A stretch of DNA of 64,000 bases, taken from NCBI GenBank assembly GCA_027491115.1, contig JAIXWV010000011.1, positions 1 to 64,000 on the forward strand. Direction: 5' to 3'. The stretch is from Pseudomonadota bacterium (GTDB lineage: Bacteria; Bdellovibrionota; UBA1018; CAIMNF01). Shown here piece by piece: positions 44,994-51,314 of the stretch (position 1 is the first letter of the stretch; the number at the start of each line of letters is the position of its first letter). The position numbers were made by a program, and so were the translations under genes. The notes under the pieces were generated by a model. It did not search any database, had not been told where the DNA came from, and was given only the letters and a program-made list of their open reading frames with translations.

Positions 44994-47900
44994 TCACTGC
45001 TGACTCTGGTGGTAGGCTTTTGCAGGGTCAATGGGTGATGGATCGATACGGAGTCCCAACCTCCCGTCGATCACTGAATCCGGACCGAACCCCACACCGT
45101 AGAGCTGATGGGAGGCTACGACCCTGAGCACCTCGCTCTCTGGGCGCGGCGAAAGCACTGCCTCGCTCAAGAGCTTCCGGTAGCGATCGCGCTGGAACCG
45201 ATTTGCACAAGGGAGAACGGAACTCATCGGATCCATCGGAATCCTGAGGCCGCAGCTCGCTGCGAACGCCAGGTTCTTGAGATTTTCGAGTGCCGGATAC
45301 ACCTCCCGGAGCGCCTTCACCCGGGTCGGTACGGATGAGGGCATCATGGTGACAAATGCTCCACCGTACTTTTCGAGAACCTGCTCGTAACTTTCCGGGC
45401 TTTGGCGAATGGCTTCGACAATCTCCCGGATCACGTGACTCTCCCCATGACTGGCCAGTCGATCCTGTAAACCATAAAGGACGGATCTCCCGTTCTTCAA
45501 ATGTTCAATCGCCGGACCTGAATCCAATCCGAAAAAGTTTCCATAGAGATTCATGAATCGGGCGATGCCAGCAGGCCCGTTCAAGCGGGCAAACTTTTCA
45601 GCGGATCGAATCCCTTCGACCTGCATGGCGTGATGAAGCTCATGTCCAATCGTATAGGCCTGACAAATCGGACTTTGTTGTTTCGAGACCCAGAGGTGAC
45701 TCCGCCCCTCCAACAACTCCGAGGTCCCGGTGGACTTCCTGACAAAACAGGCCCCCGCCCCTCGCCACTCAGGTTTCTCCAGCAATGCGATCTTCCCTGG
45801 AGACATCCGGTCGGTGAACAATTCCCGAACGCCCATCCCGGAGGCGATTGAAAACCGTTCCAGATTGTACCGGGCGTATGGCAAAACCTCGAGAAGGTAG
45901 AGTATTTCCTCCACTCCCCCGCCAGAAGTCCGATCGATGGATCGCTGGATCTCCACCAGGCGCGGAAACCGTTGAAAGTGTTTCTCTCTGGTCCGCTCGA
46001 GATCCCCGGGAGCGGAGTTTGGGGTAAGACCCCAGGCGTATTTCGCCTCCTGAACCCATTCCTCCAAGGGGAACATCTCGAATATCAGTTTCCCTTTTTC
46101 TTCCTCCTGACGGGAGGCCGACCCCTCTGCCGGGGTCTCGATCCAGACGGGACGGGACTCGAGACCCACACGCGTGCTCTCATCGTTGAGCCATGCCAAA
46201 CCCGGACTCCCGGCCCAACGTTCCTCCACTCCGTTCTCGAAACGGGAGAGTAACTTTCGCATCCGCCTCGATTCCAATCGCGTGATCATCCGATCCGGAC
46301 ATCGGGCCCGGACCATCAGACGGAGTAACGGGAGGGCTTTTTTTGAGATCCATCCCCGGGACTCAGGGTGAATGGAAATCCGCTTGAGAACCGCCTCATG
46401 AACCTCTCGATCCTCGCCTCGTTGATCTACTGAGGGATGATGCAGCACGGAGAGTCGGTCGAGTTCTGCTGCCACATCCGGACTGGAACTTTCAATCTTC
46501 ACTGTGTTGAAAACCCACTCCGAACGAGCCCGGTTGATTTTGGAAAAAAAGGACGCAATTTCATTTCGATCGATCTTGGCCTCGACCCGCCTCAACCAGG
46601 AATGAATCACCTCGGGTGCCGCTGGATCGAGGAACGCAGCCACCTCCTTGATTTGAATCGAAAGTCCGAGCAAAATGCCGTAAATCCTGTAAGCGCTCGG
46701 TGAGCCCTGATCGAGCTCCGATCTCAATTGAGCGAGCATTCTCAGAATCTGGATCAGTTGTGCCGCAGAGAAGACCGGCACCTGCTCTACGGGTATCGGA
46801 GACTTCGTCGTGTCCTGAACCGTGGGCCTTCCGGATCCGTTCCTCACTCCGTCATCGACAATCACAAAAGGGGCGTATCCCCCGCCTTTCGAGGTGTTCA
46901 CGGTCGAACTCAAGGCTCCCTTCTCCACCGGAGCGAATCGGACCAGGGCATTGCGGGTCAGCTTGGGCATGGATCCATCACCTCCGTAAAGCACCCACAT
47001 CCTCAAATCCGCGGCCAGGTTGGCAAGGCGGTAACGTTCACCGGAGACCTCTTTCATCGAAACCGGGATTCGAGCGATTCGAACCATCTTCTGATAGGCG
47101 AAGTATCCGGGTCGCTCGCGAACTTCCCGGAGGACACGACTCCGCTCCCGTTTTGGAAGTGCCATGAGCACATGGACCCCGGTGCCCCCCGAAAGATGCG
47201 GTGATTTAACCACCCACTCCTCGGGACTGGCACTCAGTAGCCCTACCGAATCAGGATTCGAAGGCAGGGAATCGGGAGGAAGGAGGCAGGCGGATTCCGG
47301 ATCGAGACCGGCCGCCTGACAGTCACCACGGTAGAACCGGGGCGCGTAACGTGTCAGCACGTCTAGAAGGAGCTTGTTATCGAGGAGACGGTTCAATCCT
47401 CCGACATAGAGTTTTCTCTGATGAATCGCACTCAAGGCTCCCTTCACCCGGAAGACGGATTCGAGAGGAACCGGCCGGCCCGTCTGATCTTGAATCACCT
47501 CGCCCGACAGGGGGTCGTGACAAACCAAGGGTTCGCCACTTTCCTGATCGCGGAGGAGCACACCCTGATCCGGATCAAAAAGCACACTGTCGCTGTTGAC
47601 CCTGGAATAGATCGAAGTGACGATCGGATCGGATCCGTCCACCGAGCGCATCCTGACCCAGCCCGCAGAATCGCGGTACAAATGGGCCGCCTCACAAAGT
47701 GTTAGGCCGGATCTGGCTGCCAGGCTGTGGATCTCCGGTGCTGCAGCGTTCGCCCCACCCGGAGGCAGGAGGATCGCCGTCCCTTCGCGGTAGTCTGTCC
47801 AAGACTCTCCGAGCGATCGATAAGTGGTCCTAAGCAAATCAAAGTGATCGTTATCACAGACCGGACCAACCGACTCCAGAAGTGATGGATCGGTTGCTCT

Positions 47901-48545
47901 CATTCCTTCGAGCAGTACTGAATTATTTGAGGCTCCGGACGGAGACCCTGCGTTGATTTCAAGGAGACGGAATGGAAGTCCGCCTTCAGTCGTTCCGTAG
48001 TCCTCCACCAGAACCAGATCCAGACCCACTTGGTCGAAAAACGGGTATTCCAGCATCACTGGATGATGAAGCTGTGGGATATAGTGGGGAGATTCGCGAA
48101 TCGTCTTCAAGAATCGCTCCCGCTCTGTCGGAGGCAAACTCTGAATAAAAGGACTTTGATCGGGGTTCACTCCTCCGTAAATCTCACGGAGGATCTTCCT
48201 CATGCAGAACACGAGTATCGCGGCGGCAGCCGAAAGCCGGTCAAACTGCGACTTGGGCAAGGGCACCACCGAGGTGGTCACCGGAACAGGGAAAATCTTC
48301 TGTTCTCCGCCTTTCCCCGATTTACGGAATGTCAGGCCCCTGGCCTCGAGGTAACGTGTCAGGCGACGGCTGTTGCGATGATGTTCAAGGGGCGTGCGCC
48401 TCAAAAACGAGGTGACAAGTCCACGAGCATGACGGTGTCCTTGGCCTGTCCCGGACTCAAACAGGTAGTTGGCAACCCGGACCTCTTTCCGTCCAATGAA
48501 GCCTCGATCAGGGATGTACTCGGAATTTCGATTGCGGTCAGTCAT
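44994..48545 (-). CDS. Circularly permuted ATP-grasp protein fused to HELHH zincin-like domain
   Basis: The protein has 1183 residues. Residues about 150-570 match the circularly permuted ATP-grasp group (COG2308-type): HHPVMLEYPFFDQVGLDLVL, LLEINAGSPSGASNN, DNKLLLDVLTRY, WVVKSPHLSGGTGVHVL, DLRMWVLYGGDG, and LTRNALVRF with NTSKGGGYAPF. Such enzymes join amino acids or peptides to acceptors using ATP. Residues 570-870 are unassigned and helical. Near 966-977, IGHELHHAMQVEG gives HExxH in a helix, with E and H further on (ESHVIREIVE), suggesting a zinc peptidase-like domain. I know no described protein with this layout. There is no signal peptide, so a cytoplasmic location is likely. It is divergent from the next gene. 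Confidence 0.8.
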   Translation of the reverse strand: MTDRNRNSEYIPDRGFIGRKEVRVANYLFESGTGQGHRHARGLVTSFLRRTPLEHHRNSRRLTRYLEARGLTFRKSGKGGEQKIFPVPVTTSVVPLPKSQFDRLSAAAAILVFCMRKILREIYGGVNPDQSPFIQSLPPTERERFLKTIRESPHYIPQLHHPVMLEYPFFDQVGLDLVLVEDYGTTEGGLPFRLLEINAGSPSGASNNSVLLEGMRATDPSLLESVGPVCDNDHFDLLRTTYRSLGESWTDYREGTAILLPPGGANAAAPEIHSLAARSGLTLCEAAHLYRDSAGWVRMRSVDGSDPIVTSIYSRVNSDSVLFDPDQGVLLRDQESGEPLVCHDPLSGEVIQDQTGRPVPLESVFRVKGALSAIHQRKLYVGGLNRLLDNKLLLDVLTRYAPRFYRGDCQAAGLDPESACLLPPDSLPSNPDSVGLLSASPEEWVVKSPHLSGGTGVHVLMALPKRERSRVLREVRERPGYFAYQKMVRIARIPVSMKEVSGERYRLANLAADLRMWVLYGGDGSMPKLTRNALVRFAPVEKGALSSTVNTSKGGGYAPFVIVDDGVRNGSGRPTVQDTTKSPIPVEQVPVFSAAQLIQILRMLAQLRSELDQGSPSAYRIYGILLGLSIQIKEVAAFLDPAAPEVIHSWLRRVEAKIDRNEIASFFSKINRARSEWVFNTVKIESSSPDVAAELDRLSVLHHPSVDQRGEDREVHEAVLKRISIHPESRGWISKKALPLLRLMVRARCPDRMITRLESRRMRKLLSRFENGVEERWAGSPGLAWLNDESTRVGLESRPVWIETPAEGSASRQEEEKGKLIFEMFPLEEWVQEAKYAWGLTPNSAPGDLERTREKHFQRFPRLVEIQRSIDRTSGGGVEEILYLLEVLPYARYNLERFSIASGMGVRELFTDRMSPGKIALLEKPEWRGAGACFVRKSTGTSELLEGRSHLWVSKQQSPICQAYTIGHELHHAMQVEGIRSAEKFARLNGPAGIARFMNLYGNFFGLDSGPAIEHLKNGRSVLYGLQDRLASHGESHVIREIVEAIRQSPESYEQVLEKYGGAFVTMMPSSVPTRVKALREVYPALENLKNLAFAASCGLRIPMDPMSSVLPCANRFQRDRYRKLLSEAVLSPRPESEVLRVVASHQLYGVGFGPDSVIDGRLGLRIDPSPIDPAKAYHQSQQ

Positions 48546-48684: not shown

Positions 48685-48720
48685 CAAACTTGAACTGTGT
48701 CGTGTTATGTACCGCCTCCG

Positions 48721-50544
48721 ATGAAAAACGAACTGAATCCGATCACTTCAGCGCCTGACCTCGAAACCCTCGTTATGGATATCCTTGCAGACGGAGGGAA
48801 GCGCCGTTTTGATCTGCCCTATTCCGTTGTCTCTTTGTTCCGAAAAAATGAGAGTGCCGGATTCGCTTACTTCGACAAAACCCGACTTACTCACACTTTG
48901 GAGATTCAAAGGATCGGATCAGGTAGGATCGAATTCAAGTGGCTGGATGCAGGGTCCGGAAACACTATTCATCAACGCACTTTTTGGACTGGGGGCGACG
49001 ATGAATCGATCCAAACACGGGTTCTCCAAAAGTTTGAGTCTGCTTGCCCGTTGATCGATCTCCTCTATCGAATGGGATTTGCGGAATATGAAAAGATCCA
49101 AGCCGGTCATGCTGATCCTCGCTGGATCGGACGACTAGAAAAGATCTTTGGAACAATCAACCGTGAGAAGCCTGGACTGCTCAGTTTCCAACAAGGGAGA
49201 GATCTAGATGCTTGGAATAAACTCCAGGATGATCTCGACCGGCTATCTATCAGCCAGATCCATAGCTGGAAAGAACGCCTTTCATCATCAAAAAGACTGA
49301 AAGTGAATTACCGAAACTTCATTCGTTTCAAACAAAGGATTCATCGTTGCGGATCGCTTCGAGCCAGGGCCCTTGAGGCATGGCTCGGCTGGACCTCAGC
49401 CCTTCGGAGATTCTTGAAGCGCCCCGGAGATAATGGAGTCGGAGTCCTCGATTATATTCTCCTGGACCCGATTCGGTGGTTTGGAAAGGTGGTTCGCTCC
49501 AACATGGGTTATTCAATCGCGCTCGCTGTCTACAGCCCTTTCACTTTCTTTTTCATCACTCAGCCCATGAATCCACATGCAATGAGAGCCGTGGAGACGG
49601 TAAGAAATGCCGGACTTGCTATCGTCGAATCGAAAACCGTACCGAGCCGGAAAGCTCCGATTGCAACCTACACAGCGGATGTGGATGAGACAGGCTGGCG
49701 CAAGCGGATGGAGCATTTCAAGTCCATGCAAATCGCTCTCGAGAGTCATCTTGATTACTCAAAAAGGGTCGGGAGACTCGAGGAAATCGAAACCCAACTC
49801 GCCTGGCCTATCACTCTTCAGGGTGCCTGGGACGAGTCCACACGGTACCGACAGGCTCTCGATTATCTGACACGATCGGCAACCGATGACCCATGGAGCA
49901 ACCTGCTGGCATCTGAGAGGCGAAGACTCAGTGACATCAGGATTTATCTGCGCGATCGTATGCTTCGTTTTATTCTCGATCATCGCTACCTGATTCTTGA
50001 TCCAGGATCTGAATTGGGGCCATCTGGACAGGCTGCACGAAGCGCCATCAGCATTTACTCCCGTATGAACGATGCGATCCTGCGGGAGCATCCGACCCTT
50101 CCCATACCTTCGGAATCCGATGAGATCGTCGCAATTGCTTCAAGAGATCCTGCCACTGATCTTCCAAATCCACCGTTCAACCGTGAAGAGCGGTCTCGAT
50201 ACTGGGAATCACTCTATCTCATGCAAAACAGGACCCAGGAGTCATCTAACGCAGGTTTACAGGCATACTGGTGGTCAGTGCGAAACACCGTTTCTGTGAT
50301 CCAGATGATGTTGGCCACACGGAGAGAAGAAATGCTCCTGCTGTCACTCCAACCGCGCCCCCCATCACGTGAACGCACGGTCTTCGAGGATCGGTATCGG
50401 TCAATGCTCCGATTGCTCGATATTGAGTTCCATTCAATTCGTCCTGAACTTTCCACAACTTTACCTGGGGATCAGGAGGCGAGTTACCGAGAAGGAATAT
50501 TGATCGGGATCCGAGAGTTTCTCGTCGAAAGGGAGAAACTTTGA
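48721..50544 (+). CDS. Unrecognised 607-residue protein with one membrane segment
   Basis: I do not recognise a family. From the ATG at 48721 the protein has 607 residues, mostly helical and charged. A single strong hydrophobic segment lies near residues 263-281 (YSIALAVYSPFTFFFI), with about 260 soluble residues before it and 320 after. The N-terminal 90 residues look strand-rich (LTHTLEIQRIGSGRIEFKWL). Aromatic and basic residues are frequent. A GTG at 48697 would add eight residues. No obvious Shine-Dalgarno precedes either. Base use looks AT-richer than in the neighbouring helicase and glmS. Its stop overlaps the next gene's TTG start. Confidence 0.75.
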   Translation: MKNELNPITSAPDLETLVMDILADGGKRRFDLPYSVVSLFRKNESAGFAYFDKTRLTHTLEIQRIGSGRIEFKWLDAGSGNTIHQRTFWTGGDDESIQTRVLQKFESACPLIDLLYRMGFAEYEKIQAGHADPRWIGRLEKIFGTINREKPGLLSFQQGRDLDAWNKLQDDLDRLSISQIHSWKERLSSSKRLKVNYRNFIRFKQRIHRCGSLRARALEAWLGWTSALRRFLKRPGDNGVGVLDYILLDPIRWFGKVVRSNMGYSIALAVYSPFTFFFITQPMNPHAMRAVETVRNAGLAIVESKTVPSRKAPIATYTADVDETGWRKRMEHFKSMQIALESHLDYSKRVGRLEEIETQLAWPITLQGAWDESTRYRQALDYLTRSATDDPWSNLLASERRRLSDIRIYLRDRMLRFILDHRYLILDPGSELGPSGQAARSAISIYSRMNDAILREHPTLPIPSESDEIVAIASRDPATDLPNPPFNREERSRYWESLYLMQNRTQESSNAGLQAYWWSVRNTVSVIQMMLATRREEMLLLSLQPRPPSRERTVFEDRYRSMLRLLDIEFHSIRPELSTTLPGDQEASYREGILIGIREFLVEREKL

Positions 50545-51314
50545 GAGGATCCATCCTGAGCATCCTGATTTTTTTGATTGGACCCCATGCATTTGGTCAG
50601 TCTCCCCGCGAAATGCCTCCAATCAGTGACATTCTGCGTGAGATGCGTGCTTCGTATCTTATTTCCATGCCCGGGGTAGAGGAACCGCTCCTCTACCACT
50701 CCTTTCGTTTGGGCTACCAAGTAAATGAAACCCTGAGGATGGGACTGGGGGGGGACCTTTCTAATTCGGTCTCCTCGACATCCACCACCTGGTACGATCC
50801 CTGCCTCTACGCCGAGCTTCTGTCCACCTCCTCCCCACCAGCACCTTACACCACTCTTTCGATGAGTTTGCCGATCACTCGTAATTCACAAGAGGCTCTC
50901 AGGATCACGAGTATGGTGTTCACGCAATCCTGGTTACTGAGTGGACGACAATCACCCTGGCAATGGGGCATCCAGTATAGTCTGAATCCGGTCTTCGAGC
51001 ACGAGCCCCTTTCCGATGGCGTCCGGGACAGACAACTTTTCTTCGCCTCTATCGGCCACTCGCTCTCCCTCAGGCTAACAGATCACTGGTCGCTTTCATC
51101 CCGGAGTTCATTCCAGATTGAGCATCGAAGACCGGTTTCAGCGGAATCTCCTTTTCTCCAGGTCCCATTTCCGGAATCCCATCAACTCGGCCTCACCTGG
51201 TCTGCAGCCTTGCAAGCGCTCCGGGTCTCAGTCGGAGCCTCCCTGCAAACAGTCTTATTCCACCCAGAAGCGAGGACCTCGCGGATCGGTGGTCATCTCG
51301 CCTTGGGTTTCTGA
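50541..51314 (+). CDS. Secreted barrel-like outer-membrane protein
   Basis: The protein has 257 residues and probably starts at a TTG at 50541 that overlaps the upstream stop (TTGA), with GGGAG a few bases upstream. The signal peptide is RGSILSILIFLIGPHAFGQ. The rest has alternating strand-like blocks (LLYHSFRLGYQV, TLRMGLGGDLSNS, LRVSVGASLQTVLF) ending in IGGHLALGF with a terminal phenylalanine, typical of small outer-membrane barrels. It is coupled to the unknown membrane-anchored protein, which suggests a shared envelope function. Confidence 0.7.
   Translation: MRGSILSILIFLIGPHAFGQSPREMPPISDILREMRASYLISMPGVEEPLLYHSFRLGYQVNETLRMGLGGDLSNSVSSTSTTWYDPCLYAELLSTSSPPAPYTTLSMSLPITRNSQEALRITSMVFTQSWLLSGRQSPWQWGIQYSLNPVFEHEPLSDGVRDRQLFFASIGHSLSLRLTDHWSLSSRSSFQIEHRRPVSAESPFLQVPFPESHQLGLTWSAALQALRVSVGASLQTVLFHPEARTSRIGGHLALGF

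Follow-up and report, generated by a model that had tools for sequence, protein, structure and literature searches.

A Bdellovibrionota protein combining a circularly permuted ATP-grasp domain, a putative HExxH metallopeptidase domain, and a conserved C-terminal glutamine tail

Introduction

Several described systems pair a ligase or synthetase with a hydrolase. RimK is an ATP-grasp enzyme that adds glutamate to the C terminus of RpsF, and RimB removes the glutamate (PMC11957791, PMC7343187); in the RimB-RimK hybrid (RimBK), ligase and peptidase reside in one protein (PMC11957791). Trypanothione synthetase-amidase also holds a synthetase and a hydrolase in a single chain (PMC2784880). The Anbu operon encodes an ATP-grasp protein, Alpha-E, a transglutaminase-like protein, and Anbu (PMC6376114), while the Pseudomonas Rlo operon (RloA/B/C), which has an envelope phenotype, encodes a cytosolic ATP-grasp protein, a membrane protein, and a peptidase (PMC12239564).

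Here we describe a protein, encoded within a 64,000-nucleotide stretch of a Bdellovibrionota genome (the window), in which a circularly permuted (CP) ATP-grasp domain is fused to an HExxH domain and a glutamine tail. A first-pass annotation of the window had called such a fusion of synthesis and cleavage undescribed. This was too strong, since RimBK (PMC11957791) and trypanothione synthetase-amidase (PMC2784880) are published; the combination of CP ATP-grasp, HExxH domain, glutamine tail, and obligate partner genes was not found in the limited literature that we searched.

The closest described systems each share part of this arrangement. Like RimK and RimB, which are fused in RimBK, the protein would unite an ATP-grasp ligase with a peptidase, and in both cases there is a homopolymeric C-terminal tail to act on. 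However, the ATP-grasp domain of RimK is not permuted, RimB is an N-terminal retropepsin-like aspartic protease, the residue is glutamate, and the substrate is RpsF; a Pfam search of the fusion protein found no aspartic protease, and CP_ATPgrasp instead of a RimK-type domain. COG2308-type CP ATP-grasp proteins have the same fold, the same catalytic positions, and the theme of ligase with peptidase (PMC6376114), but the fusion protein has neither Alpha-E nor an Anbu operon and differs by its HExxH domain, its glutamine tail, and two other partners. The Rlo operon also brings together ATP-grasp and peptidase, although as separate proteins, with an aspartic peptidase and an inactive transglutaminase membrane protein. 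Glutathionylspermidine/trypanothione synthetase-amidases are single chains with both synthetase and hydrolase but, unlike the fusion protein, have no glutamine tail and no partner genes.

Results

The open reading frame (ORF) drawn at 44994-48545 by the first-pass annotation is a real gene. It lies on the minus strand, with an ATG start and a stop codon from 44994, and its 1183-residue product (44997-48545) has full-length homologues, 39-78% identical, across the Bdellovibrionota. The source genome (2.5 Mb, 45 contigs) contains a single copy, which is also its only CP ATP-grasp. Every one of the 12 genomes from its own genus has a homologue, as do three genera from a second family in the order and numerous genera from a third Bdellovibrionota family. 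A species-titled collection contained one homologue, in a metagenome-assembled genome labeled Bdellovibrio, and no relatives were found among plasmids or viral contigs. The N terminus has no hydrophobic stretch, and the protein is predicted to be cytoplasmic.

Residues ~15-565 (46851-48503, minus strand) form the CP ATP-grasp domain, which had been placed at 150-570 from its motifs. Both CP_ATPgrasp_2 (E 1.4e-16) and CP_ATPgrasp_1 (E 9e-8) match above their Pfam gathering cut-offs (for CP_ATPgrasp_1/2, 60.9 bits versus 32 and 31.9 bits versus 23.1), with the match low-scoring and split, and by sequence the protein matches PDB entry 3n6x, a putative glutathionylspermidine synthase, at 4e-8. We modeled the fusion protein with AlphaFold2 using 23 homologues as input (mean pLDDT 83.7) and checked for the ATP-grasp fold using Foldseek. 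The fold was found: the best match was again 3n6x (E 1.8e-16, TM 0.81 by target), followed by eukaryotic glutathione synthetases. The ATP/Mg residue pattern E-x-N, K, GGxG, D-x-R, and N-T-S-x-GGG is present, and E196/N198, K447, G453/G454, D513/R515, and N550-TSKGGG, which we take to be the ATP- and metal-binding positions of the superfamily, are invariant in all alignment rows that cover them. Given this modeled fold and these invariant positions, the N-terminal half is likely an active ligase.

These fold matches would also suit a metabolite enzyme akin to glutathionylspermidine/trypanothione synthetase-amidase, in which a small amide is made and then hydrolyzed by the zincin domain, with the tail serving assembly or partner binding; fusions of synthetase and amidase are known. 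However, the hydrolase of those enzymes is an N-terminal cysteine amidase rather than an HExxH protein, and a Pfam search of the fusion protein gave no match to CHAP, the cysteine amidase domain, at E≤1. For a thiol metabolite, one would not expect partner genes that are obligate or a partner that is exported (below), and the conserved tail would still have to be explained separately. We consider this explanation rather unlikely.

Between the two halves, DSSP assignment of the model gives a helical linker at residues ~566-839 (46029-46850, minus strand). The linker has no detectable similarity to Alpha-E (hhalign probability 0.2), and the idea that it is a divergent Alpha-E was rejected. The earlier observation that no Alpha-E gene lies alongside holds more widely, as none was found in the source genome or 29 relatives (30 genomes, in which the controls worked).

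Residues 840-1183 (44997-46028, minus strand) make up a putative gluzincin-like C-terminal domain. The sequence IGHELHHAMQ occupies residues 966-975, of which GHELHHAMQ (967-975; 45621-45647, minus strand) is the HExxH motif and putative zinc-binding site. G967, H968, E969, H972, and Q975 are invariant, and GHExxHxxQ is kept in 23/23 homologues. Because H968, E969, H972, and Q975 never vary, the HELHH motif picked out in the first pass is not a chance match. In the model, strands are followed by the HExxH helix (959-988) and further helices, including one at 1082-1097 that holds E1087 and N1091, with E1081 just ahead of it. Strands, an HExxH helix, and then a glutamate helix is the order found in gluzincins (PMC6414381). 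As E1081, E1087, N1088, and N1091 are invariant in all 23 homologues, the segment E1081-VYPAL-E1087-NLKN1091 (45273-45305, minus strand) is a candidate glutamate helix that may supply the third zinc ligand. By conservation, E1087 or E1081 fits this role better than ESHVIREIVE, the first-pass proposal, which is present but varies freely among homologues. E983 is invariant, yet it lies in the HExxH helix itself, 11 residues past the second histidine, and we judged it too distant to be a ligand.

The isolated C-terminal domain was modeled with a pLDDT of 82 and had no fold match in the PDB or a viral fold library. DUF6782 (PF20573, "putative metallopeptidase") is matched by 18 of 24 members around the HExxH motif only and below threshold (best 20.9 versus 27 bits), and the domain scores below every curated family cut-off. 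The domain resembles gluzincins and DUF6782 in its predicted strands, HExxH helix, and later candidate glutamate helix and differs in its low score and lack of a fold match. The missing fold match and the confinement of the sub-threshold Pfam match to the HExxH region are consistent with a domain that is no peptidase, in which the motif sits in a degenerate or structural helix or binds metal to regulate the ligase. We think this unlikely: H968, E969, and H972 are invariant over many genera, along with E1081/E1087, and even the weak matches of most members are to a putative metallopeptidase. From its conserved residues and predicted structure, the C-terminal domain is likely a metallopeptidase.

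The protein ends in YHQSQQ (44997-45014, minus strand), and the family consensus is YNQTQQ plus zero to four glutamines. Each of the 35 close homologues whose end is intact terminates in QQ, with few exceptions in the form Y[NH]Q[TS]QQ; the variants are YNQTEQQ (twice) and YNQNQQ, YNSAQQQ, and CYNNIQQ (once each). Tail positions are the best conserved among the final 30, and the number of terminal glutamines varies from 2 to 6. The glutamine codons are a mixture of CAA and CAG, making replication slippage an unlikely origin; together with the varying glutamine number, this argues for selection at the protein level.

We asked where else such tails occur. The tail motif is found once in the source genome, in the fusion protein, which rules out a genome-wide tag and argues that the tail acts in cis. 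Among other genes in the examined loci, 1/455 ends in QQ. Apart from the proteins described here, a QQ end turned up in the examined loci only in a PP-loop (TilS-like) protein of one genus, which ends in SQQ (L057 14357-15697; L113 1601-2947). Counted by genus, QQ ends occur in 16/17 genera with HExxH versus 0/5 genera of relatives without it (p=2e-4, ignoring shared ancestry between genera), and one remnant that lost HExxH (L016/L076) also lacks the tail. The tail therefore belongs to the fusion proteins in cis and tracks the HExxH domain.

In both AlphaFold models, of the full protein and of the isolated C-terminal domain, the penultimate glutamine (Q1182) is placed in a beta-bridge at low confidence. 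This placement, and the fact that the tail follows the HExxH domain and not the ATP-grasp domain, would be explained if the tail were a product-like pseudo-substrate that lies in the HExxH cleft and keeps the peptidase latent until displaced or clipped, with the ligase acting elsewhere. However, the pLDDT of the tail is only about 50-60, and a varying number of glutamines would be unusual for a fixed pseudo-substrate. A latent peptidase is nearly as likely as the reading that we prefer, in which the protein makes and cuts bonds on the tail (Discussion).

A far Bdellovibrionota family has the same ATP-grasp domain and a different HExxH domain (AHExxHFKxW; L062 5604-8870, L063 5976-9437, L070 7626-11150, and L122 6005-9466). 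Comparison of near and far HExxH domains with hhalign revealed no similarity past the HExxH motif, leaving a single detectable family unsupported. In four of five far-family genera the proteins end in QQQQ, QSQQ, QQQ, or QQQQ, and in one there is no such end (4/5 versus background, p=1e-8, again ignoring shared ancestry between genera); two far-family members of genus g65 have HExxH without QQ. The N termini of this family are hydrophobic and signal-peptide or lipoprotein-like, which suggests that these proteins are secreted. Export is odd for an ATP-dependent ligase, as the periplasm has no ATP, and the site of action may be the interior of another cell.

The remnant named above (L076 6681-7433) is a 251-residue piece of the C-terminal half in genome G029, from which partner gene 1 (below) is absent, and has neither HExxH nor glutamine tail. 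In G259, ATP-grasp and HExxH are on separate ORFs (L064 6680-9316 and 9556-10179), and the QQQ end sits on the HExxH ORF; a split gene or a frameshift is possible. At L108 (2673-5441, minus strand), a far-type HExxH domain is joined in one protein to a MutS-like ATPase (MutS domain V, 6.7e-8), and the N terminus is hydrophobic.

Two genes accompany the fusion gene. Gene 1 (48697-50544, plus strand) encodes 615 residues with a semi-hydrophobic conserved segment at ~265-300, and gene 2 (50541-51314, plus strand), which overlaps it by 4 bases, encodes 257 residues with a signal-peptide-like N terminus and an aromatic C terminus. The pair is divergent from the fusion gene in the source genus and directly downstream of it in other families; gene 1 adjoins the fusion gene in loci with flanking sequence, and the genes of the module overlap by a few bases in several loci. 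Across homologous loci, gene 1 proteins have 600-800 residues and gene 2 proteins 257-397. Gene 1 protein has no Pfam match and is not a clear membrane protein, as its hydropathy of 1.37 is under the usual transmembrane threshold. From the signal-like N termini and usually aromatic C termini of gene 2 proteins, we infer an outer-membrane beta-barrel-like product. In a sample of 291 genomes, gene 1 was present in 44/44 genomes with the fusion and 0/247 others, and thus is an obligate partner. Genes 1 and 2 form a conserved module with the fusion gene.

With gene 1 an obligate partner, the glutamine tail could be a recognition signal for its protein, for docking or turnover, apart from catalysis. 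We regard this as very unlikely, since the QQ-ending proteins of the far family have no gene 1 neighbor, and far-family genomes without the near family also lack gene 1.

A protein-glutaminase gene (PF18626, Gln_deamidase_2) adjoins the module in 7/12 members of the genus and also in G039 and G161 (genes beside the module include L043 6728-7468 and L053 11947-12645). In the source genome, the PF18626 gene lies elsewhere, away from the module. A tie between this neighbor and the glutamine tail is suggestive only.

Discussion

Our preferred reading, which we hold tentatively, is that the protein both makes and cuts, with a CP ATP-grasp ligase and an HExxH gluzincin-type metallopeptidase acting on a C-terminal peptide, likeliest its own tail. 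The ATP-grasp domain would activate a carboxylate with ATP and form an amide bond on a peptide C terminus, and the metallopeptidase would remove or trim the product. The encoded oligo-glutamine tail, whether of the same chain or of another copy of the protein, would be the likeliest target of extension, conjugation, or trimming, similar to the way in which the glutamate tail of RpsF is lengthened by RimK and shortened by RimB. The two partner genes, the product of one of which is probably exported to the outer membrane, may link the fusion protein to the cell envelope.

Several observations support the make-and-cut reading. These include the ATP-grasp fold, the invariant HExxH motif and E1081/E1087, and the gluzincin-like order of elements; the conservation of the tail (35/35), its varying glutamine number, and its association with HExxH; the beta-bridge of the penultimate glutamine, modeled at low confidence; the precedent of RimK/RimB and RimBK; and the adjacent protein-glutaminase genes in several lineages. 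The reading is weakened by the C-terminal domain, which lacks a PDB fold match and falls under every curated family cut-off, and by the two g65 proteins that have HExxH and end without QQ. The precedent is also imperfect, as RimK has no circularly permuted ATP-grasp, and the target of RimK and RimB is a separate ribosomal protein and not the enzyme. It is more doubtful that the enzyme is specifically self-modifying, its ligase and opposing metallopeptidase writing and erasing a modification on its own encoded oligo-glutamine C terminus, and that it forms the center of a module tied to the envelope and, in the collections searched, restricted to Bdellovibrionota.

If ligase and peptidase do share the C-terminal glutamine tail, the protein would be a self-contained, reversible tagging switch in a single chain, comparable to RimK/RimB or tyrosination cycles. 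The retention of the tail across otherwise dissimilar C-terminal domains provides a sharp and cheap experimental handle, and the obligate partners define a conserved module in the Bdellovibrionota, a phylum noted for its predatory bacteria.
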